64,000 nucleotides of DNA from Fusobacterium varium (GTDB lineage: Bacteria > Fusobacteriota > Fusobacteriia > Fusobacteriales > Fusobacteriaceae). Shown piece after piece: positions 8,682 to 29,588 of this stretch; position 1 is the stretch's first letter; each line of letters starts with the position of its first letter. A program made the translations under genes and the position numbers. The DNA lies in contig LR134390.1 of assembly GCA_900637705.1 (NCBI GenBank), positions 2,542,001 through 2,606,000 on the forward strand, given 5' to 3'. The notes under the pieces were generated by a model that was not told where the DNA came from, did not search any database, and worked only from the letters and a program-made list of their open reading frames with translations.

Positions 8682-9823
8682 TTAATTTTTATATTTTTCC
8701 ACATATTCTTCTATTCTTTCTACTGCTTCTTTCAACTTAGATATATCTACTGTAAGAGATATTCTAAAACATTTCTCTGTTCCAAAAGATATTCCTGGTA
8801 CTACTGCTGTTTGTACTTTTTTCAGCATATCCATTGCAAAATCAAAAGAATTTAATTTTGAAATTTTTGAATAATCTGCAAATATATAAAAAGCTCCTTT
8901 AGGCTCAACTACTTTAAATCCCAGTTCTGTCAGAGCATCTTTCATATATACAGCTCTTTTTTATATATATTCATAAGTTCTTTTCTATCTTCAAATTTTT
9001 CCAGTGCAATCTCTGCTGCTGCAATAGATAAAGCCATTGGAGAGCTCAGTGTATATAAAGTGGTATTCAAGAAATATCTTCTGTATTCTAAGGGAAAAAT
9101 AGTATATCCTATTCTCCACCCTGTCATTGAATGAGATTTTGAAAATCCATTTATTATAATAACCTTATCTTTTATTTTCTCAAAGGAACTAAAAGAATAA
9201 AAATTATAAAATGAAAGTTCACTGTATATTTCATCTGCTATAAGAAATATATCTCTCTTCTCCACAAAATCTGCTATTATTTCCATTTCCTCCAAAGTTA
9301 ATACATTCCCTGTAGGATTACATGGATTGCTTAAGAGAATAGCCTTAGTTTTATCAGAATAATTTTCCTCTAATAATTTTGATGTTATTTTAAAATCTGT
9401 TTTTGTTGTATCCATAAAAATACTCTTAGCATAACATAAATTTACCATTGAAGGATATCCAGGATAGAAAGGTGCTGGTATTATTACCTCATCTCCAGAA
9501 TTTAAAATGGTTCTCAAACATGAAGATAAGGCTTCTGAGGCTCCAACATTTATAATAACATTATCCATTACATAACTAGAACCATATTTTCTATTATAAT
9601 AATCTGCTACCAATGTTCTGATTTTTTCTCCACCACCAGTAGGAGGATATCTTAACTGATGCTCTGCCCCATATTTTAATGCTTCTGTTATAAGTTCTTT
9701 GGGAGAAGGTATATCTGGCTCTCCTATTGTGAGATCTATTGCATTTGAATATTTCCTTGATTCTTCATTAAGAGCTCTGATAAGAGAGTATTCAAGTTTT
9801 AACACTTCTCTGTTTATTTCCAT
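8682..9823 (-). pseudogene. Class I/II aminotransferase of DAP synthesis, split by a single-base frameshift
   Basis: Two reading frames make one aminotransferase: residues 1-293 (9823 to 8942) and an 87-residue C-terminal piece (8945 to 8682). Adding one A to the run of six (T6 at 8957-8962 on the plus strand) joins them into 380 residues, the normal length. The first part has ITIGEP-like TIGEPDIPSP, SNPCNPTGN, DEIYSEL and the PLP-lysine region GFSKSHSMTGWRIGY; the second has the family end FRISLT. As the last gene after dapH it most likely transaminates N-acetyl-2-amino-6-oxopimelate (PatA/DapX role). As written, the product would lack the C-terminal domain. Sequencing error is more likely than a real mutation because the same defect recurs elsewhere in this window. 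Confidence 0.85.
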
Positions 9824-9832
9824 TTTATCCTC

Positions 9833-10537
9833 CTATTTTCTCAAATCATCTACCAACTGTGTCTTTTCTAATGTTTTTTCATCTACATTTTTTACTATTC
9901 TGGCAGGATTTCCTATAACAACTGCACCTGCTGGAACATCTTCAATAACTACTGCTCCTGCTCCTACCACTGCTCCTGTACCTATTTTCACTCCTTCTAT
10001 AATGACAGCATTAGCTCCTACAAGAACTCCATCTTCAACTACTACTGGCTTAGCTGATGGTGGTTCTACAACTCCAGCAAGAACTGCTCCTGCTCCTATA
10101 TGACAGTTTTTTCCAACTGTAGCTCTACCTCCAAGAACTGCTCCCATATCTATCATAGTATTATCTCCAATTACTGCTCCTATATTTATTACTGCTCCCA
10201 TCATAATGACAGCATTATTTCCTATAGTTACTTTATCTCTTATAATAGCTCCTGGCTCTATTCTTGCATTTATATTTCTATAATCTAAAGTTGGTACTCC
10301 TGAATTTCTTCTATCATTTTCTATATAGAAATCTGTTATATTATCTCTATATTTTTCCAATACTCTGTTTATTTCATCTGATTCTCCTATCAGTATATAT
10401 GAACCATTTCCTCTAAAGATTTTAGCTGAAGTTTCAATGTTAGCCATATCTCCATTTATATATGCCTTTACAGGTGTTCTTTTTTGTGAATTTTTTATAA
10501 ATGCTATTATTTCTTCTGCTGTATTTAAGTTTATCAT
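9833..10537 (-). CDS. dapH: Tetrahydrodipicolinate N-acetyltransferase DapH
   Basis: This 234-residue acyltransferase has an N-terminal alpha/beta part followed by left-handed beta-helix hexapeptide repeats (residues about 90-205: [20 protein letters not shown], repeated GA(V/G)V patterns). Size and repeat layout match DapH, which transfers an acetyl group from acetyl-CoA to tetrahydrodipicolinate, opening the acetylase branch to diaminopimelate. It lies between dapB and the aminotransferase in one operon with 8-9 bp gaps. The presence of an acetylase rather than a succinylase agrees with the divergent M20 deacetylase. Confident call. Confidence 0.93.
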
Positions 10538-21514: not shown

Positions 21515-22495
21515 TTATATTATTGCTTTTTTATATGCTCCATCGGAACCAAATACATCAACAATTTTTGTTTTATAGTAAACTTTCATTTCTTCCCTAG
21601 CTGCACCTAAATATTTTTTCAAGTCAAATTCTTCAGGTTTTTCTGCTAAAGCTTTTCTCAATGCTCCTGTAAAAGCAAGAGAACCATCTGTACTGACATT
21701 AATTTTTGCAACTGTTGACTTTGTAGCTTTTCTTAATTCTAAGTCTGGTATCCCTACAGCATCTTTTATCATTCCTCCATATTGTCTTATCATTTCAATA
21801 TATTGTTTTGGAACTGCTGAAGAACCATGAAGTACTATTGGAAAACCTGATATTCTTCTTTCTATCTCTGCCAATACGTCCAATTTTAATTTAGGGTTAT
21901 CCCCTGGCTTAAATTTATGAGCTCCATGAGAAGTTCCAATAGCAATTGCAAGAGAATCAACTCCTGTCTGTTTAATAAAATCTTCTGCTTCATCTGGAGA
22001 GGTAAATTCATGTTTTTCTACTTTTTTCCCTTCCTCTACCCCTGCTAATACTCCAAGTTCAGCTTCTACTGTTACATTTTTTCCATGGGCATATTCTACA
22101 ATTTCTTTAGTTTTTATTACATTTTCAGCAAAAGGATAATGTGATCCATCAAACATTACAGAAGAAAAACCATTATCTATACACTTTCTAATAATTTCAA
22201 AGTTTGAACCATGGTCTAATTGCAGTGCTACTGGAATCTCTGCTCCTGATGCCTTTACATAATCAACTGCTCCTTTTGCAATCAAAGGTATCATATTAAT
22301 TCCTAAATATTCTATAACTTCTTTTGAACATTGAAGTATTACTGGTGACCCCATTTCTGCACAAGCTTCCATTATTGCCAAAACCTGTTCTAAGTTGTTA
22401 AAATTAAAAGCTGGAACTGCATATCCGTTCTCGTTAGCTTTTTTAAACATTTCTTTAGTATTTACCAAGCCTAATTCTTTATAATTATAAGGCAT
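21515..22495 (-). CDS. Class II fructose-bisphosphate aldolase family protein (cluster-specific aldolase)
   Basis: The 326-residue protein shows class II aldolase signatures: QLDHGSNFE (about residue 93), FDGSHYPFAEN, EAELGVLAGVE, GTSHGAHKF and the zinc-site VLHGSSAVP. Length and the NYKELGLVNTKEMF start are those of FBA of this type. It is the last gene of an operon with a DUF1537 kinase, BKACE, cupin, TRAP transporter and racemase, so it probably cleaves a phosphorylated intermediate made by the kinase rather than serving only glycolysis. The usual glycolytic enzyme has HGAS where this has HGSS. Housekeeping FBA remains a possible alternative. Confidence 0.85.
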   Translation of the reverse strand: MPYNYKELGLVNTKEMFKKANENGYAVPAFNFNNLEQVLAIMEACAEMGSPVILQCSKEVIEYLGINMIPLIAKGAVDYVKASGAEIPVALQLDHGSNFEIIRKCIDNGFSSVMFDGSHYPFAENVIKTKEIVEYAHGKNVTVEAELGVLAGVEEGKKVEKHEFTSPDEAEDFIKQTGVDSLAIAIGTSHGAHKFKPGDNPKLKLDVLAEIERRISGFPIVLHGSSAVPKQYIEMIRQYGGMIKDAVGIPDLELRKATKSTVAKINVSTDGSLAFTGALRKALAEKPEEFDLKKYLGAAREEMKVYYKTKIVDVFGSDGAYKKAII

Positions 22496-22504
22496 TTCAT
22501 CCTC

Positions 22505-23941
22505 CTACTCATTATTTAATAAAATTTCTACTGCCTCTTTTAATGTTGAAACTTCTCCTACATTTCCTGGAAAAATAATATATGGTATCATTGGAAATTT
22601 ACTTTCTTCTCCTGTCTGCCATACTGGTATGCCTGGACAAATCTGTCCTAACACATTTGCCCTTTTTACTTTAAGAGCCTTTGTCCCAACATCACTGGAA
22701 GTTATTCCTCCCTTAGCTATCACAAAAGCTGGTATTACTTGAAGCTTTCCAACTAAAGACTGAACTGCATCTGAAATTTTCACAGAACGAAGAAGCGCTT
22801 CTTCTTTAGTATCGTTTTCTATGACTAACAATTTTCTTTTTGTATATACTACAACTGTTTTTCCAGAAGTAATTAATTCCTCTTCCATTTTCAAGGTGTT
22901 TTCTATCTCTTTTTGAAAAGCTTCTTCATTAAGTACCAAATCAGAATTAAATTCTATAAAAACAAGATCTTTTAATTTTTTCAATTCCTCTACCTGACTT
23001 GTTGTCTTTTGTGTATGTGAACCTACTACAATAATTCCACCATTTTTTGTTTCTTTTACTACCATCTTTTTTCTTGTAAGAAGTGGCTGCTCAGAAATTC
23101 CTCCAATAATTTTTACAATTGCTGCTGCTACACGAAACATGAAATTTTTTCCCTGTTCCATTGCTTTATAAAGAGCTATTACAAATACTTTCAAATCACA
23201 ATAGTCTATTGCATTTACTACAATTTTTTCAAAATTTTCTACCTGCATTAATTTTTTTGTTATTTCATCAATTTTAACTTCACGAAGTTCTTCTAAAGAA
23301 ATAGTGATTACTTTTTCAGCTGAATATTTTCCATTTGTTTTTTCTTCTATATAATCACATAAATTAGAAGAGGTATATCCAAATGTTTTATCTTTTGCAA
23401 ATTCTGTCTGCCCTGCTGGTACAAGAACATTTCCAGTTTTTACATAGTGAATATTCCCAATAGTAAATCTTCCTCCTTCTTTAAAAAATGGACATATAAC
23501 TTCTCCATCCAGATGTTTTTTCCCATCAGCTTCAAATCCTTCACGAAGTAATTGAGTTTCAAGAGGATAGTGACCTCTTAAAGTAGAATCTCCTCTGCTT
23601 ATAATCATATATTCTTTGCCAGTTTCTTTAGAAATTTTATTTACTCTTTGAATTATCTCTTTATGACATTTTATTGTCTGATCTACAGTAAACCCTCTTG
23701 AATTAGTTAATATATAAAAAAGATTCCCCTCCTCTGTAAATCCTTCACGAATACTATCTTCCGACCAGTCTGTATATACAAATACATCATGAACAGTTTG
23801 AACTCCAGTAGGATCATCATCTAAAACAATGATCTTTTTTTTATTTTTCTTTACACAAGCTAAAAGCTGTTCATCTAATTTTTTTTCATCTATAGGCTTA
23901 TATGAATTTAATACTTCAATTCCTAATGCAGTTTCTCCCAT
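22505..23941 (-). CDS. Four-carbon acid sugar kinase family protein (DUF1537, OtnK-like)
   Basis: DUF1537 kinases phosphorylate four-carbon acid sugars such as threonate and erythronate derivatives. Visible here are the N-terminal LDDDPTGVQTVHDV (about residue 40), SRGDSTLRGHYPLE, and the C-terminal nucleotide-binding AKGGITSSDVG and FPGNVG. The 478-residue length fits. It lies 10 bp before the aldolase gene and 11 bp after the BKACE gene. Known OtnK loci also contain a dehydrogenase, OtnI isomerase and OtnC decarboxylase; none is here, so the substrate is likely different. Confidence 0.88.
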   Translation of the reverse strand: MGETALGIEVLNSYKPIDEKKLDEQLLACVKKNKKKIIVLDDDPTGVQTVHDVFVYTDWSEDSIREGFTEEGNLFYILTNSRGFTVDQTIKCHKEIIQRVNKISKETGKEYMIISRGDSTLRGHYPLETQLLREGFEADGKKHLDGEVICPFFKEGGRFTIGNIHYVKTGNVLVPAGQTEFAKDKTFGYTSSNLCDYIEEKTNGKYSAEKVITISLEELREVKIDEITKKLMQVENFEKIVVNAIDYCDLKVFVIALYKAMEQGKNFMFRVAAAIVKIIGGISEQPLLTRKKMVVKETKNGGIIVVGSHTQKTTSQVEELKKLKDLVFIEFNSDLVLNEEAFQKEIENTLKMEEELITSGKTVVVYTKRKLLVIENDTKEEALLRSVKISDAVQSLVGKLQVIPAFVIAKGGITSSDVGTKALKVKRANVLGQICPGIPVWQTGEESKFPMIPYIIFPGNVGEVSTLKEAVEILLNNE

Positions 23942-23951
23942 TACTTTCCCC

Positions 23952-24752
23952 CTATATATTTAACATTTTTCTTGCTTCATATGGTGTCATTGCTTCCTTA
24001 TCCATTGCATGAAGAAGTTTTACTACTTTTTCTACCAATGGAACATTAGTGTCTACTCTAGTTTCTGAATCCAAATAATCACTATCTTCAAATCCTATAC
24101 GTACTGTCTTTGCTCCTAATCCTAATGCTCCTGCTATAATTCCAAAATCTTTTCTATGAGCATGTGTAATCCCCCATATTGTATCTTTTGGAATAAAATT
24201 TACCATAGCCATCAAAGCTTCTGGTGTTGCAGGAGCTTCACCTGGATGTCCAAGTACAATACTGAATAAAATCGGCAGCTTCATATTATATTCTTTACGC
24301 AGTTCAGCTGTCTGATGTATATGCCCTATTTCAAATACTTCTATCTCTGGAGTTTTTCCTGTTTTTATAATTTCTTCTATACAGTATTTTACCTCAGGAA
24401 TAGGATTACAATAAACTGCATTTCCAAGATTTGTAGACCCTACATTTAAGGAACAAGTTTCTACTTTATCATAATACAAGGGAGTGCAACGCTCTTTTAT
24501 AGTTAAATTTGATACTCCCCCAGTAGATACTTGAATAATAATATCTGATTCAGCTCTTATCAATTCTACTGTTTCTTTTAATCCAGATAAGTCTGTTGTT
24601 AAGTTTCCATATTTATCACGCACATGGAGGTGAACCATTGACGCACCTGCCTTTGCACATTCAATTACATCTCTTGCTATTTTCTTTGGATCTATATATT
24701 TATCAGCAGCAGAAACTGGTGCTACAGAAATTAATACTTTATTTTCCATCAT
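23952..24752 (-). CDS. BKACE family beta-keto acid cleavage enzyme (DUF849), TRAP cluster
   Basis: This second DUF849 protein (266 residues, shorter than the copy at 2996) has zinc ligands in MVHLHVRDKYG (about 41-51) and RIGFEDSDYL near residue 225, plus STGG (about 77). Expected chemistry is acetyl-CoA-dependent cleavage of a beta-keto acid into acetoacetate and an acyl-CoA. The TGA motif of classical Kce is replaced by a VSAADK segment, so the substrate differs from 3-keto-5-aminohexanoate and from the other copy. It sits between the cupin and DUF1537 kinase genes. Confidence 0.85.
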   Translation of the reverse strand: MMENKVLISVAPVSAADKYIDPKKIARDVIECAKAGASMVHLHVRDKYGNLTTDLSGLKETVELIRAESDIIIQVSTGGVSNLTIKERCTPLYYDKVETCSLNVGSTNLGNAVYCNPIPEVKYCIEEIIKTGKTPEIEVFEIGHIHQTAELRKEYNMKLPILFSIVLGHPGEAPATPEALMAMVNFIPKDTIWGITHAHRKDFGIIAGALGLGAKTVRIGFEDSDYLDSETRVDTNVPLVEKVVKLLHAMDKEAMTPYEARKMLNI

Positions 24753-24770
24753 TTCCTCCTAAATTAATTT

Positions 24771-25124
24771 TTATTCATATAATACTTGAGCTATAACTAC
24801 TAATGGTTCTTCCCCTTCGCAAGCTATACTATGAGTATCCCCAGGCATTGCTCCTATAATATCCCCTTTTTTCAAATGTTGAACCTCTCCATTAATAATA
24901 TGCTTTGCTTTTCCTGCTATTAAAACCATTGTTTCCATTTCTTTCTCATGGGTATGCATTCCTATACTGACACCTGGATTTAATGTATGACGTACATATG
25001 CTCTTCCTTTTCCAAGCATTTCCTCTGGAGCATTTAAAAGCTTTTCCATCATTACAACTCCTTCTCCTCCCATACAATGTTCCAATGGAATAGGTTTTAA
25101 CTCCTCCAATTTTCTATAAATCAT
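24771..25124 (-). CDS. Small cupin-domain protein
   Basis: This 117-residue single cupin has motif 1 as GMHTHEKEMET (about residues 55-65) and motif 2 as GDIIGAMPGDTHSI (about 87-100), giving a plausible His-His-Glu-His metal site. Cupins of this size are often sugar or organic-acid isomerases, epimerases or ligand-binding proteins. It is the first gene after a terminator-like hairpin and precedes BKACE by 18 bp, so it should act on the same pathway. Function otherwise unknown. Confidence 0.8.
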   Translation of the reverse strand: MIYRKLEELKPIPLEHCMGGEGVVMMEKLLNAPEEMLGKGRAYVRHTLNPGVSIGMHTHEKEMETMVLIAGKAKHIINGEVQHLKKGDIIGAMPGDTHSIACEGEEPLVVIAQVLYE

Positions 25125-25151
25125 AATTACTCTCCTTTTTTCTAAAAAATA

Positions 25152-25180
25152 AAAACGGACTTAAAATTAAAGCCCGTTTT
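25152..25180 (-). terminator. Terminator or attenuator between the FadR-type regulator and the cupin gene
   Basis: AAAACGGGCTT pairs with AAGTCCGTTTT (minus strand), one G-T wobble, with a 7-nt loop, followed by TTTTTATTTTTT. It lies 27 bp before the cupin ATG. No promoter fits between it and the ATG, so downstream genes depend on readthrough or regulated antitermination. Confidence 0.72.
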
Positions 25181-25184
25181 CCAG

Positions 25185-25204
25185 GCCGCATTATCTTTCG
25201 CGGC
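25185..25204 (-). other. Short GC-rich hairpin before the attenuator
   Basis: GCCGC-N10-GCGGC forms a strong 5-bp stem, unusually GC-rich for this sequence, immediately 5' of the terminator hairpin. The tandem hairpins may be an RNA control element; I do not recognise a riboswitch family. Confidence 0.4.
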
Positions 25205-25211
25205 TATTTTT

Positions 25212-25922
25212 CTATTTTTCCCAATATTTATAGTGCTTTTCAATAATTTCACTGATTTTTTCAGTTTGTTTCTTTCTGAATATTTCAATTATCTCTCTAT
25301 GGAGTGATATAAAATCATCTTGATGTCCATGTTCCAAAATATATTCATTTGCAACTATACGACTTGATTTTGTGATTTTATCTATATAATATCCAATACT
25401 TTCTAAAAGACGATTATCTAAAATTTCCACAATAACTGCATGAAATTTTACATCAGCCTCAAACATTTCCTGCGGTGATGGAATTTTTTTATTAATTTTT
25501 TCTTCCATTCTTAGCAATTCCTCTTCCAGCTGCTTAAAATCTTCCTCTGTCATTCTTTTTATAGCTTCTTGAAAAATTCCTACATCAATTACTTTTCTCA
25601 ATTCCACTATTTGCTCTTTAGAATCTTTTTGCAGAATAATTCCATATAGTATTGGATACAGCATTTTATCATCATACTCTTGGCGTATATATGTTCCATC
25701 TGCACGTTTAATTTCTAAAACTCCATAGGCTTCCAAAATCTTTATTGCTTCCCGAACAGAATTTCTTCCTACACCAAATGATTCACATAATTCCACTTCA
25801 GTTGGAATTTTATCCCCTGGTTTTAATTCTCCATTAATAATTGCATTTGTAATTTGATCTGTTATTCGTTCCACAACTGACTTATTAGCCAATGAAACTG
25901 ACATAAATTTATTTTCTTTCAT
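25212..25922 (-). CDS. FadR/GntR-family transcriptional regulator
   Basis: The 236-residue protein has an N-terminal GntR winged helix (about 12-80, with KPGDKIPTEVELCESFGVGR and NSVREAIKILEAYGVL) and an FCD ligand-binding domain (about 90-225) that normally holds a metal-bound organic acid. It is placed inside the TRAP/BKACE/kinase cluster and is the likely pathway repressor, responding to the substrate or a product. It has its own promoter with a palindrome over the -10 region at 25947-25964, suggesting autoregulation. Confidence 0.9.
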   Translation of the reverse strand: MKENKFMSVSLANKSVVERITDQITNAIINGELKPGDKIPTEVELCESFGVGRNSVREAIKILEAYGVLEIKRADGTYIRQEYDDKMLYPILYGIILQKDSKEQIVELRKVIDVGIFQEAIKRMTEEDFKQLEEELLRMEEKINKKIPSPQEMFEADVKFHAVIVEILDNRLLESIGYYIDKITKSSRIVANEYILEHGHQDDFISLHREIIEIFRKKQTEKISEIIEKHYKYWEK

Positions 25923-25946
25923 TAATTACTACCCCTTCTATGTAAC

Positions 25947-25988
25947 ATACCTATATTTAAGTATATAACAAACTGAAATTTTCTGCAA
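25947..25988 (-). promoter_or_regulatory. Promoter and overlapping operator of the FadR-type regulator gene
   Basis: Minus-strand TTGCAG (25983-25988) and TATACT (25960-25965) are 17 bp apart. ATACCTATATTTAAGTAT (25947-25964) is an 18-bp near-palindrome, 14 of 18 symmetric positions, overlapping the -10 box and start region, as expected for GntR autorepression. The start codon is 25 bp downstream. Confidence 0.5.
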
Positions 25989-25991
25989 TTA

Positions 25992-27257
25992 TTATATTAA
26001 ACATGTTGTCAGCCAAGGAACAAATGTAATAATTAAAAGTGCTACTAAAGACATTATCAGTAATGGAACCATTTTACGACAAATCACTTCAAATTTGACT
26101 TTACCTATATCAGCCGCGACATAAAGGTTTGGTCCTACTGGAGGTGTAACTTGCCCTATTGAAAGGTTTAATACTAAAATTACTCCTAAATGAACTAAAT
26201 TTATATCCAATGCTTTTGCTATTGGAAGAATAATTGGAACAATGATATAAAGGGCACTTGTGTTATCCATAACACATCCTGCTAATAAAAATACAACATT
26301 GATTATCAATAACATTACATACTTATTTGTAGTAAATCCAATTGCCATCTCTGTCAACTGAGTTGCAATTCCTTGTTGTGTCAATATCCATGAAAAAATT
26401 CCTGCATTCATAATAATTAATAAAATAATTCCTGTAGTTTTTGCTGTACTGAATAATGTTTCTCTTAAAGCTTCAAAAGTCAGTTCTTTATATATAAATT
26501 TTCCTACAACAAAACTGTATATTACAGCCACTGCTGCTGCTTCTGTTGGTGTAAAGAATCCTGAATAAATCCCCCCTAACACTATAACTGGACTCAAGAA
26601 TCCCGGAAGTGTTCCCCAAAAAATTTTCATTATTTCTTTTTTAGTTGCTTTAGGTTTATCTCCTTTCCATCCATACTTTTTAGAGTAGATAAACACAGTC
26701 AAACAGAGGATACTTGCAAATATGATTCCCGGAACAATTCCAGAAAGGAACAAATCGCTAATAGATTGTCCTGTAATCATTCCATATATGATGAAAGTAA
26801 TGCTTGGAGGAATGACAGTTCCCAATGAACCTGATATTGCAGATAGTGCACTGGAAAATCCTTTATCATATCCTTGCTTTACCATTGCTGGTATCAATAT
26901 AGATCCCATTGCTGCCACTGTAGCTGTTCCTGATCCTGATATTGCTGCAAAGAATAAAGCACTTATAACTGCTACATACCCAAGTCCCCCATGAATAGGC
27001 CCCATCATACTGTCCGCCAGATTAATAAGTCTTTTTGAAATTCCTCCCTTATCCATCAATACTCCTGCCAGTACAAATAATGGAATTGTCAGTAAAGAAA
27101 ATTTCTGTACAGTTGCCTGCATCATTGAAGGAATTACACCCAATGGTGATCCTGTTGCTACAAGAGTCAAGGCACTTGATAATCCTAAAGAAATAGAAAT
27201 AGGAATATTTAAAAATATAAAAACTGCTAATGATATAAATAATATTGCTGATGCCAT
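25992..27257 (-). CDS. TRAP transporter large permease DctM
   Basis: The 421-residue, highly hydrophobic protein shows the DctM layout of about 12 membrane segments, with SGSGTATVAAMGSILIPAM, GSLGTVIPPSITFIIYG and IGQVTPPVGPNLYV (the repeated GTVIPPS/TPPVGPN motifs of the family). TRAP transporters use a Na+ gradient and a binding protein to import organic acids. It overlaps nothing and follows dctQ by 4 bp. With dctP and dctQ it forms the uptake module of this cluster. Confidence 0.93.
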   Translation of the reverse strand: MASAILFISLAVFIFLNIPISISLGLSSALTLVATGSPLGVIPSMMQATVQKFSLLTIPLFVLAGVLMDKGGISKRLINLADSMMGPIHGGLGYVAVISALFFAAISGSGTATVAAMGSILIPAMVKQGYDKGFSSALSAISGSLGTVIPPSITFIIYGMITGQSISDLFLSGIVPGIIFASILCLTVFIYSKKYGWKGDKPKATKKEIMKIFWGTLPGFLSPVIVLGGIYSGFFTPTEAAAVAVIYSFVVGKFIYKELTFEALRETLFSTAKTTGIILLIIMNAGIFSWILTQQGIATQLTEMAIGFTTNKYVMLLIINVVFLLAGCVMDNTSALYIIVPIILPIAKALDINLVHLGVILVLNLSIGQVTPPVGPNLYVAADIGKVKFEVICRKMVPLLIMSLVALLIITFVPWLTTCLI

Positions 27258-27261
27258 TTAT

Positions 27262-27771
27262 TTATTCCCCCTTTCTTTTAGCCTGTTCTTCAGGATCTTT
27301 ATTTATAGCCAATTCATATTGAATCATCCTAATGATAGAAAATACAGCTGATAACGGAATTGCTAAACCTATCAACCAGCTTGGCATTTCTAAAACTCCA
27401 GTAAGTAATCCATATTTATATTGTCTATATACCATGACAGTTCCCCAAATAACCCAAATTCCATAATTTGCACAACATACAGCCAGACGAAACCATGCAT
27501 GTATTACTCTTGTATTTCCTCTAAATTTATCTGTTATGTATGCAAATCCCATATGAGAATCTGTTTTAAAAGCACTTGCTGCTGCTAAACAGCATACCCA
27601 TACAAACATTGTTGTTACTAATTCTTGACTAAATGACATATTAAACCAAGTAATTTTACGTGAAAATACATTCATAAATGTTACCACTGCCATTACTACC
27701 AGAGCTATGGAACATAAATATTCTTCGAAATTATCCCAAAATTCTTTTAAGAAACCTTGTGATTTACTCAT
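27262..27771 (-). CDS. TRAP transporter small permease DctQ
   Basis: This 169-residue protein has four predicted membrane helices and the DctQ-family segment near FVWVCCLAAASAFKTDSHMGFAY. It pairs with DctM in the inner membrane. It lies 4 bp upstream of dctM and 18 bp downstream of dctP, in the order P-Q-M typical of TRAP operons. Confidence 0.9.
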   Translation of the reverse strand: MSKSQGFLKEFWDNFEEYLCSIALVVMAVVTFMNVFSRKITWFNMSFSQELVTTMFVWVCCLAAASAFKTDSHMGFAYITDKFRGNTRVIHAWFRLAVCCANYGIWVIWGTVMVYRQYKYGLLTGVLEMPSWLIGLAIPLSAVFSIIRMIQYELAINKDPEEQAKRKGE

Positions 27772-27789
27772 AATAATATCCCCTCCTAA

Positions 27790-28803
27790 TTATTTGCCCT
27801 GAAACAGATTGATAACATCCTGTCCTACTACATCTACATATTTAACAAAAATTCCTGCACATGCTTCTTTAAATTTCTCTCTTTCCTCATCTGTCAATCT
27901 TGCAAATTTTGTTCCATTTTTTTCTAAGTTTTCAATAATTGAAGATTCATTTGCTGCAAGGTAATCATTTCCCCATTGAAGAGCCTCTGCTGCACTTTCT
28001 TTAATAATTTTTACATCTTCAGGGGATAATTTTGCCAATGTCTTATTGCTTATTACCCAAATATTTGTATCACGAACTCCATCCCAAAGCAAAACATTAG
28101 ATTGTACTTCTGCAAATTTAGAAGAATTAAAAACTGCAATTGGATTTTCCTGTCCATCAATAGTTCTCTGTTGAAGTGAAGTATATACTTCCGAGAAATC
28201 CATAGCAGTAGGATTTGCTTTAAAATAATCCCTGTAAAGATCTATAAACACATTTGCTCCTGGAACACGAATATTCATTCCTTTCAAATCTTCAGGTGAA
28301 TGTATTTCTTTGTTACTTGAAATCTGTCTAGACCCAGCATTATTTATTCCAAGCATTGTCATTTCCAAATCATTGCACCATTTATTGATTTCAGTTTTAG
28401 CTCTATCACTATTAACAAATCTGACTAAATCTTCAGTTGAATCAAATAAAAATGGAAGCCAGAATGCATAGAATTTAGGATTATAATTTGCTATATTTGC
28501 TGGAGCACAAGCATGGATATCTATATTCCCTGCTTGGACTAGCTCTATTGCTTTTGTTAAATCTCCTCCAGATAACCCACAATTCTGATAAACTTCAACC
28601 CGTATTCTCCCATTAGATTTTTCATCCACATATTTCTGAAATTTTTTTGCTGTTAAATCACTGATAGATTCTGGTTGTTGTGTATGAGTCATACGGATGA
28701 TTATTTTTTCATTCTGAGAATTATCACCACATCCTGCTAAAGTAAAGAGCATTATTCCTGTTACTGTTATTGAGAAAATCTTTGTTAATTTTTCTTTAAA
28801 CAT
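27790..28803 (-). CDS. TRAP transporter substrate-binding lipoprotein DctP
   Basis: A 337-residue DctP/SiaP-like binding protein. The N-terminus has a lipobox ending LAGC (Cys about 25), so it is anchored outside the inner membrane. The region MNIRVPGANVF with its Arg (about residue 177) is the usual carboxylate-binding arginine block, indicating an organic-acid ligand. It also contains FSEVYTSLQQRTIDGQENP, typical of the family. Adjacent dctQ and dctM complete the transporter. Confidence 0.92.
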   Translation of the reverse strand: MFKEKLTKIFSITVTGIMLFTLAGCGDNSQNEKIIIRMTHTQQPESISDLTAKKFQKYVDEKSNGRIRVEVYQNCGLSGGDLTKAIELVQAGNIDIHACAPANIANYNPKFYAFWLPFLFDSTEDLVRFVNSDRAKTEINKWCNDLEMTMLGINNAGSRQISSNKEIHSPEDLKGMNIRVPGANVFIDLYRDYFKANPTAMDFSEVYTSLQQRTIDGQENPIAVFNSSKFAEVQSNVLLWDGVRDTNIWVISNKTLAKLSPEDVKIIKESAAEALQWGNDYLAANESSIIENLEKNGTKFARLTDEEREKFKEACAGIFVKYVDVVGQDVINLFQGK

Positions 28804-28831
28804 TCTTATTTCCTCCTCTTCTTTATCTTCC

Positions 28832-29506
28832 CTATTTTACCATTCCTTTTGCTATCAAAGCATCTCTTAATGCTAGAGCTCCATATCTAGGACTTGATGC
28901 AACCATTTTTCCATATTTTTCTCTGATTATATCCTCACAATATGCCATAGAACCTTGTGCAAATAATATTACATCTGCTTTCTCTGCCACTTTCCCTGCA
29001 TATTCTGTCATCAATGCTTTAAATTGTTCTTGATCTAATCCAAATGCTCCATCTACTAAGCAATCTATTAATTCAACATGTTTATTCATTTCTCTAGCTA
29101 CACGTTTTATAGTATTCTTTGTTGGTTCAAGAGTTGTGGGAAGTGTTGCCATAACTACAATCTTATTTCCATTTCTAACTGCATCTCTGCACATTTCTTC
29201 GTCTATTCTTACAATTGGAATTCCTGTATATCTAGCAACATCCTGTGCAGAATCTGCTACTTCTCCCACTGAAGAGCAAATATTTAAAATTGCGTCTGCC
29301 CCTGCACTTACAGCCTCCATATACATTCCTATCAAACGAGCTGCTGGTGCTGGAGTTACATAGCCAGCTGTTCTTACATCTGCAAGTATGCTTGGATCTT
29401 GATATGATAAAATTTCTGTTCCTTCTGGAAGTGCTCTCCCTACTTCTTTTTCTACTAATTCTATTAATTCTGGTGTTGTACTTGTATAAACTAATGCTAC
29501 TTTCAT
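28832..29506 (-). CDS. Asp/Glu/hydantoin racemase superfamily protein
   Basis: The 224-residue protein has two cysteines in family positions: Cys in LNICSSVGE (about residue 77) and Cys in ELIDCLVDGAFG (about 149). The Asp/Glu racemase superfamily uses two cysteines for cofactor-free racemisation or decarboxylation (maleate isomerase and arylmalonate decarboxylase are related). As the first gene of the TRAP-transporter operon it may convert the imported acid to the enantiomer used by later enzymes. A racemase role is favoured, but a decarboxylase or isomerase is not excluded. Confidence 0.83.
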   Translation of the reverse strand: MKVALVYTSTTPELIELVEKEVGRALPEGTEILSYQDPSILADVRTAGYVTPAPAARLIGMYMEAVSAGADAILNICSSVGEVADSAQDVARYTGIPIVRIDEEMCRDAVRNGNKIVVMATLPTTLEPTKNTIKRVAREMNKHVELIDCLVDGAFGLDQEQFKALMTEYAGKVAEKADVILFAQGSMAYCEDIIREKYGKMVASSPRYGALALRDALIAKGMVK

Positions 29507-29524
29507 ATAACCCCCCTGATTTTC

Positions 29525-29545
29525 ATCCTTTGTATAACGTAGGAT
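29525..29545. promoter_or_regulatory. Palindrome in the leader of the racemase-TRAP operon, candidate operator
   Basis: ATCCT-N11-AGGAT spans the predicted start region, 20 bp before the racemase ATG. It is symmetric at 14 of 21 positions. The FadR-type regulator of the cluster is the natural candidate binder, but the sequence is not clearly the same as the palindrome at its own promoter. Confidence 0.4.
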
Positions 29546-29559
29546 GTTTTACTGATTGT

Positions 29560-29588
29560 ATTATACTACCTTTTTTTATTTTTGTAAA
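29560..29588 (-). promoter_or_regulatory. Promoter of the racemase-TRAP operon
   Basis: Minus-strand TTTACA (29583-29588, one mismatch to TTGACA) and perfect TATAAT (29560-29565), spacer 17 bp. It lies about 54 bp upstream of the racemase ATG. Confidence 0.72.

Follow-up and report, generated by a model that had tools for sequence, protein, structure and literature searches.

This report concerns a 64-kb window of a Fusobacterium varium genome of 3.30 Mb in one contig (G000:C1:2542001-2606000; throughout, the window means this whole stretch), and within it a set of nine co-directional genes on the minus strand (21515-29506) in the order RAC-DctP-DctQ-DctM-GntR/FCD-cupin-BKACE-kinase-PF01116 aldolase. 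Intergenic gaps of 4-87 bp separate the genes, and the operon is flanked by housekeeping genes, with NfeD upstream and RpiR and ProC downstream. The leading gene (28832..29506) encodes RAC, a 224-residue protein with the Asp/Glu-racemase fold, for which the PF01177 match, a structural model and alignments point to a putative single-base isomerase. A TRAP importer follows, made up of the SiaP-like solute-binding protein DctP (27790..28803; PF03480), the small permease DctQ (27262..27771; PF04290) and the large permease DctM (25992..27257; PF06808, with TIGR00786 above its cut-off). Next come a GntR/FCD regulator (25212..25922; PF00392 and PF07729), an accessory cupin of 117 residues (24771..25124; PF07883), a zinc-dependent TIM barrel of the BKACE family (23952..24752; PF05853), a DUF1537 acid-sugar kinase of the DDDPTG subtype (KIN, 22505..23941; PF07005 and PF17042), putatively acting on an oxo-tetronate or a similar acid, and a PF01116 class II aldolase (21515..22495) that residue comparison marks as a putative OtnC-type decarboxylase/aldolase releasing dihydroxyacetone phosphate (DHAP).

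Gene calls and Pfam matches (Asp_Glu_race, DctP, DctQ, DctM, GntR with FCD, Cupin_2, BKACE, SBD_N with NBD_C of DUF1537, and F_bP_aldolase) bear out an earlier note on this DNA, which had described this gene set and the absence of a dehydrogenase, OtnI and OtnC: none of the nine genes encodes a dehydrogenase (LtnD-type included), OtnI, an Aldolase_II-type OtnC or a coenzyme A (CoA)-transferase. The identical nine-gene order recurs at the equivalent chromosomal site of three congeners (L010, L011 and L012). The set is thus a conserved organic-acid operon, in line with the note's view of an organic-acid pathway, and the note's proviso that the genes might not be conserved together falls away. 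Within the phylum, a close kinase is present in 5 of the 98 genomes searched and absent from the other 93.

A main result of the comparative analysis is that RAC, BKACE and the kinase form a conserved module across the Bacillota. When a kinase profile was run against 84,980 species genomes, 79 loci were returned, and their neighbourhoods, checked by tblastn, define two main classes of context. In class A loci the kinase is accompanied by a GarR-type beta-hydroxyacid dehydrogenase, often by a GntP permease, and sometimes by a second PF01116 lineage or by DtnK and PdxA. NCBIfam scores of these dehydrogenases exceed the cut-off for 2-hydroxy-3-oxopropionate reductase and fall short of that for threonate dehydrogenase. 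Class B loci, the window operon among them, have a transporter (TRAP or PanS-like) and a GntR regulator along with RAC, BKACE and the kinase. Across 91 loci, GarR stands beside the kinase in 41 and BKACE in 22, and the two never occur together (P = 1e-7 by naive count and 5e-5 on the kinase-selected loci alone, values that, like the others given below, are optimistic because the loci are phylogenetically related). The earlier note had proposed looking for the same set with a dehydrogenase elsewhere; what occurs, in those 41 of 91 loci, is GarR plus kinase, with or without a PF01116 enzyme and never together with BKACE. On a quick kinase tree with several weak forks, the BKACE-linked kinases are scattered among the GarR-linked ones, requiring eight changes of partner, at least four of them forced by well-supported branches. 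GarR on the one hand and RAC with BKACE on the other therefore seem to be interchangeable suppliers of one kinase, and two unrelated, mutually exclusive front ends would serve a single DUF1537 kinase subfamily. The gene order nearest to that of the window is found in L097 (9830-16351), where RAC, DctPQM, GntR, cupin and BKACE are followed by a GarR-type dehydrogenase as the last gene, the kinase lying elsewhere in the genome.

The module was recovered also by a search with RAC, independent of the kinase, over 392 Lachnospirales genomes at a cut-off of 1e-45. Fifteen genomes carry RAC, all with E <= 4e-77 and at least 59% identity, and nothing else appears down to the cut-off. Twelve of these loci were new; BKACE is present in ten of the twelve and the kinase is nearby in eight, while three further genomes carry it elsewhere (57-65% identity) and one shows a kinase remnant beside RAC. 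In this last locus (L102, about 9300-10216) RAC adjoins 65 residues of kinase interrupted by stop codons, the mark of a decayed module. RAC is the most constant partner of the module, with 59-79% identity throughout, and is rare in other Bacillota, with 2 positives among 398 genomes of one sample and 1 among 249 of another, each count including the centre genome of its sample.

In Lachnospirales, the neighbourhoods of the module point to the plant pectin rhamnogalacturonan II (RG-II). A GH127 gene lies in seven BKACE-linked loci (L041, L053, L064, L078, L085, L105 and L106), and in L137, reached through GH127 itself, kinase and BKACE are adjacent. The GH127 protein of L041 matches PDB entry 5mqo, which we take to be BT1003, with 558 bits, as against 351, 327 and 258 bits for other GH127 structures. 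BT1003 is an aceric acid hydrolase acting in RG-II degradation (PMC10850190, PMC5698469). The L041-type enzyme has 15 close matches in the same 392 genomes, nine of which coincide with RAC where 0.57 would be expected (P = 4e-11), and since the two genes reside on different contigs in five of those nine genomes (G194, G221, G245, G260 and G283), the association does not reduce to local linkage. Other neighbours in these regions are a GH140-like apiosidase, a GH106 rhamnosidase and, in L105, a GH42 enzyme, together with a split transketolase accompanied by a sugar isomerase and an FGGY kinase in L144 (G241), all of them in line with RG-II, which contains apiose. Leaving one decayed locus aside, the RAC operon includes a TRAP importer in all five RAC genomes without GH127 and in none of the nine with it (P = 5e-4), a division which suggests that the former scavenge the free acid and the latter use the polymer, the window genome being of the TRAP type. 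The TRAP system of the window is a candidate importer of the released acid; the nearest PDB relatives of its DctP are the sialic-acid solute-binding proteins 4mnp and 2cex.

The residues of the individual enzymes narrow down the chemistry that the module might perform. The AlphaFold model of RAC (pLDDT 92.7) finds its best fold matches in allantoin, glutamate and hydantoin racemases, with arylmalonate decarboxylase also among its neighbours. The first catalytic cysteine (C77) is invariant in the 21 relatives aligned, and in all of them an invariant glutamine (Gln184) stands opposite the second cysteine of allantoin racemase in a profile alignment; conservation does not extend to C149 of the window protein. 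RAC therefore has the fold of the cofactor-independent Asp/Glu racemases without their pair of catalytic cysteines, and we rejected it as a standard two-base racemase. The family assignment made in the earlier note holds as to fold and fails as to the two-cysteine signature, so that racemization of an imported acid, as then proposed, finds no support. Judging from these residues, RAC more likely shifts a proton by means of one base, and by elimination it would be the isomerase of the module.

For BKACE, alignment to Kce (2y7d) identifies H41, H43 and E222 as zinc ligands, R218-D223 as the Arg-Asp pair and E138 as the catalytic glutamate, and all six residues are invariant in an 18-member alignment; the mechanism of the family, including the role of the glutamate, has been described (PMC11961710). 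In the window protein the N-terminal loop is shortened and no NCBIfam BKACE equivalog cut-off is reached, and its PDB relatives include cis-epoxysuccinate hydrolase. The latter performs CoA-independent chemistry on the BKACE fold. The cupin, with 1o4t as its nearest PDB relative, is confined to some of the loci, namely those of the window clade and L097, with a related cupin in L042.

The PF01116 enzyme is 70% identical to a conserved housekeeping fructose-1,6-bisphosphate aldolase (FBA) paralogue of the same genome (G000:C1:824455-825420). In the numbering of the Giardia enzyme, taken over by alignment, D255, R259 and R280 are the residues that we presume to recognize fructose 1,6-bisphosphate (FBP). 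The housekeeping paralogue retains D, R and R at these positions, whereas in each of the four species the operon enzyme has S, S and K there, while keeping the zinc ligands, the catalytic aspartate and the C1- or DHAP-phosphate site (LDHG D/H, GTSHGAH, LHGSS and NVxT). A role as glycolytic FBA was therefore rejected, the specificity residues being lost and the true FBA lying elsewhere in the genome; of the FBA-type aldolase named in the earlier note, the family stands and the FBP-specific residues do not. The PF01116 enzymes found beside the kinase in other phyla are only 33-37% identical and carry N and S or A at the first two of the three positions, again with zinc ligands, catalytic aspartate and DHAP-phosphate site retained. 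The same kind of residue loss has thus occurred in two separate PF01116 lineages beside the kinase, and both may be decarboxylases or aldolases acting on a mono-phosphorylated keto acid. The order already suggested in the note, with the kinase preceding this enzyme, is a sensible one.

The kinase itself is a clear DUF1537 protein (PF07005, E 6e-48; PF17042, E 3e-34). The eight best PDB folds for its model (pLDDT 91.2) are all DUF1537 chains, from six proteins, with E values of 2e-18 to 2e-14. Its scores reach neither equivalog cut-off, at 29.6 of 350 bits for OtnK and 60.3 of 450 bits for DtnK, and PDB sequence searches with the protein, alone or as a profile, gave no match; hence we regard it as a distant DUF1537 subfamily marked by the DDDPTG motif. 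An assignment as glycerate kinase, to which GarR and glycerate-dehydrogenase-like neighbours could point, is made less likely by the recurrence of a PF01116 partner whose DHAP site is preserved and by the published oxo-tetronate precedent. Other kinases of the broader family are found in further contexts. The second DUF1537 gene of the window genome (L015, 8481-9748; G000:C1:240095-240738) belongs to the ADDLTGA type, is interrupted by a TAA codon and adjoins PdxA-like, DapA-like, TRAP and GntR genes; it is probably a decayed D-threonate-type kinase, or else the product of a sequencing error. In one congener a second DDDPTG kinase (51% identity) is encoded next to a TctABC transporter and an HpcH/HpaI-like aldolase (L013, 9448-14740), and in L092 (10028-17071) a kinase and a RAC-like protein accompany a thiamine diphosphate (TPP) enzyme, a TIM-barrel isomerase and a glycerate-dehydrogenase-like gene, a context that suggests yet another oxo-acid route.

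The pairing of a DUF1537 kinase with an FBA-type aldolase, taken to be unusual in the earlier note, has a precedent that makes this claim out of date: according to Guo et al. 2024, as cited in PMC12540250, L-threonate and D-erythronate are degraded in three steps by LtnD, 2-OtnK (DUF1537) and 2-OtnC (F_bP_aldolase) to DHAP. The operon shares with that route the kinase beside a PF01116 enzyme, DHAP as product and the lack of OtnI and of an Aldolase_II-type OtnC. It differs in having RAC and BKACE, together with the cupin, in place of an LtnD-type dehydrogenase, and in that its PF01116 enzyme arose recently by duplication of the housekeeping FBA and does not belong to the lineage found beside the kinase elsewhere. 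Zhang et al. 2016 reportedly established a four-step pathway for the same two acids through LtnD or DenD, OtnI, OtnK and OtnC, with which the operon has the DUF1537 phosphorylation in common, while lacking LtnD, OtnI and the Aldolase_II OtnC and having a kinase below the OtnK and DtnK cut-offs. In a branch of inositol catabolism, the PfkB-family keto-acid kinase IolC is followed by the PF01116 aldolase IolJ, which yields DHAP; the logic is shared, although the kinase of the operon belongs to DUF1537 and the acid half of the product would be different. Relative to the side chain B system of Bacteroides thetaiotaomicron around BT1003, the Lachnospirales loci show a 5mqo-type GH127 and GH140-like, GH106 and GH42 enzymes beside RAC, kinase and BKACE, whereas the window operon has no glycosidase and would act on the released monomer. 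The kinase and PF01116 back end is therefore of a known kind, and the RAC and BKACE front end and its tie to RG-II and aceric acid appear to be the new part.

Aceric acid is 3-C-carboxy-5-deoxy-L-xylose (CHO-CHOH-C(OH)(COOH)-CHOH-CH3), a rare branched sugar acid that forms part of side chain B in RG-II. We propose, with somewhat less than even confidence, that the operon is a free-acid-scavenging version of a module for the breakdown of aceric acid, or of a closely related acid, to DHAP, acetaldehyde and CO2; the exact order of reactions is about half as likely as the substrate. The free acid would be imported by the TRAP system and converted by the single-cysteine RAC from aldose to ketose (CH2OH-CO-C(OH)(COOH)-CHOH-CH3), which is at once a beta-keto acid and a 2-substituted 3-oxotetronate. 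BKACE, a zinc enzyme that stabilizes the alpha-carbanion of a beta-keto acid, would, by chemical reasoning, cleave this ketose at the branch in a retro-aldol reaction to give acetaldehyde and 3-oxotetronate. The DUF1537 kinase would then phosphorylate the terminal CH2OH group, and the PF01116 enzyme, devoid of contacts to a C6 phosphate, would decarboxylate the phosphorylated product to DHAP, so that overall aceric acid and ATP would yield DHAP, acetaldehyde, CO2 and ADP. Under this order a single kinase would be fed either by GarR, from tetronates, or by RAC plus BKACE, and the PF01116 enzyme would need only its DHAP site. We consider it rather doubtful that the whole of the broader scheme holds, in which gut bacteria scavenge aceric acid released from RG-II by means of a BKACE that is a CoA-independent retro-aldolase and a single-cysteine racemase fold that is a sugar-acid isomerase. 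RG-II is present in every plant-rich diet and its depolymerization is known in detail; no description of the fate of aceric acid after its release was found in searches of an open-access library, which is not proof of absence, and we know of no described pathway for the released monomer. The module makes this fate testable with purified enzymes, provides a marker by which to trace cross-feeding on RG-II monomers among gut bacteria other than Bacteroides, and suggests new chemistry for the BKACE and Asp/Glu racemase families.

Besides the relatedness of the loci, a number of observations weigh against this proposal. We know of no precedent for a retro-aldol reaction by BKACE or for aldose-ketose isomerization by an Asp/Glu-racemase fold, and canonical BKACE requires acetyl-CoA and a proton on the alpha carbon. 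A GH127 of the BT1003 type is absent from the window genome and its three congeners, the substrate being argued from relatives, and the window-type BKACE is only some 46% identical to the BKACE of the GH127 loci, so that specificity could differ. Of the six genomes with GH127 and no RAC, the five other than that of L137 show no module gene beside GH127. The division between TRAP and GH127 is blurred by L041, outside the 392-genome sample, which has both, and the cupin is left without an explained role.

We hold to be improbable a reading in which the same kinase and PF01116 pair acts on an oxo-tetronate and TRAP, RAC and BKACE supply it from another imported hydroxy or keto acid in the loci with TRAP or PanS-type transporters, the window among them. 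The window kinase groups with those of L019, L020, L022, L026 and L096, loci in which no GH127 is found; the BKACE of this group forms a distinct branch, a PanS/SBF-like transporter replaces TRAP in L020 and L026, and the 2-OtnK/2-OtnC pair is published (PMC12540250). The uniformity of RAC across all loci argues in the opposite direction, as does the union of TRAP and GH127 in L041. With aceric acid kept as substrate, it is conceivable, if quite unlikely, that RAC instead decarboxylates the isomerized acid in the manner of arylmalonate decarboxylase, leaving a 5-deoxyketopentose that KIN would phosphorylate at C1 and the PF01116 enzyme would split into DHAP and acetaldehyde, with BKACE as an auxiliary. 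The kinship in fold with that decarboxylase and the loss of C6-phosphate residues, which suits acetaldehyde as the aldehyde half, agree with such an order. Arylmalonate decarboxylase works with a single cysteine, in the second position, however, whereas RAC keeps the first; moreover, acids are the substrates of the DUF1537 kinases known to date, and BKACE, nearly always present, would have little to do.

A canonical, acetyl-CoA-dependent BKACE could also cleave an acid taken up by the importer, either a beta-keto or a 2-deoxy sugar acid, to give acetoacetate and a hydroxyacyl-CoA, the free acid then being phosphorylated, a view close to the beta-keto branch of the earlier note and to deoxyribonate catabolism and one to which we attach little probability. 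All BKACE catalytic residues are intact, malonate semialdehyde is an example of the C3 beta-oxo acids that the family accepts (PMC11961710), and BKACE followed by glycerate kinase has been proposed for deoxyribonate (PMC6365646), two cases with which the window enzyme shares the complete Zn/Arg/Glu set and the sugar-acid context and from which it differs in its short loop, its scores below the equivalog cut-offs and the acetyl-CoA independence of the chemistry proposed for it. This view accounts neither for a PF01116 enzyme with a DHAP site nor for the exclusivity of GarR and BKACE and the GH127 link, and it sits poorly with an operon that has neither dehydrogenase nor CoA-transferase. Very unlikely, finally, is a hexuluronate route comparable to that of IolC and IolJ, in which the kinase would act on a 5-ketoaldonate (tagaturonate, fructuronate or 5-ketogluconate) and the PF01116 enzyme would release DHAP and tartronate semialdehyde, the latter of which GarR would reduce in other genomes and RAC and BKACE would deal with here. 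The GarR partners do exceed the tartronate-semialdehyde reductase cut-off, and L087 places a kinase and a RAC-like gene inside a uronate locus, but tartronate semialdehyde has no route through BKACE, and the published DUF1537 and F_bP_aldolase pair acts on oxo-tetronates (PMC12540250).

For the aceric acid order proposed above, L096 (1085-11910) provides a further context. RAC, BKACE, kinase and TRAP genes are there followed by an Aldolase_II gene, a CoA-acylating aldehyde dehydrogenase, two proteins resembling bacterial microcompartment shell proteins, and PduL. The module may thus feed a microcompartment, and the aldehyde dehydrogenase, PduL and shell-like proteins fit acetaldehyde as a product. 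The Aldolase_II protein of this locus was considered as an OtnC and left unassigned, having no NCBIfam match at E 1e-15.

The regulatory sequences of the operon are conserved as well. The best sigma-70 site of the region (TTTACA-17-TATAAT, 11 of 12 positions; 29560..29588, minus strand) lies 54 bp ahead of RAC and is identical in the four species. Between this promoter and RAC, a palindrome conserved in the same species (CATCCT-11 nt-AGGATG; 29524..29546, minus strand) is a candidate GntR operator, and its pattern occurs once in the 64 kb against 0.01 expected. The gap between the GntR and cupin genes is filled by a double hairpin with a terminator-like second stem (25125..25211, minus strand; fold z-score -3.5), likewise conserved in the four species and leaving no space for a further promoter behind it; no RNA family was matched in an Rfam search, and the structure is a candidate attenuator at which transcription may be attenuated. 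The GntR protein is proposed to control the operon: orthologues of it are found in ten loci with RAC, BKACE and kinase (L019, L020, L022, L026, L041, L045, L047, L085, L096 and L097).

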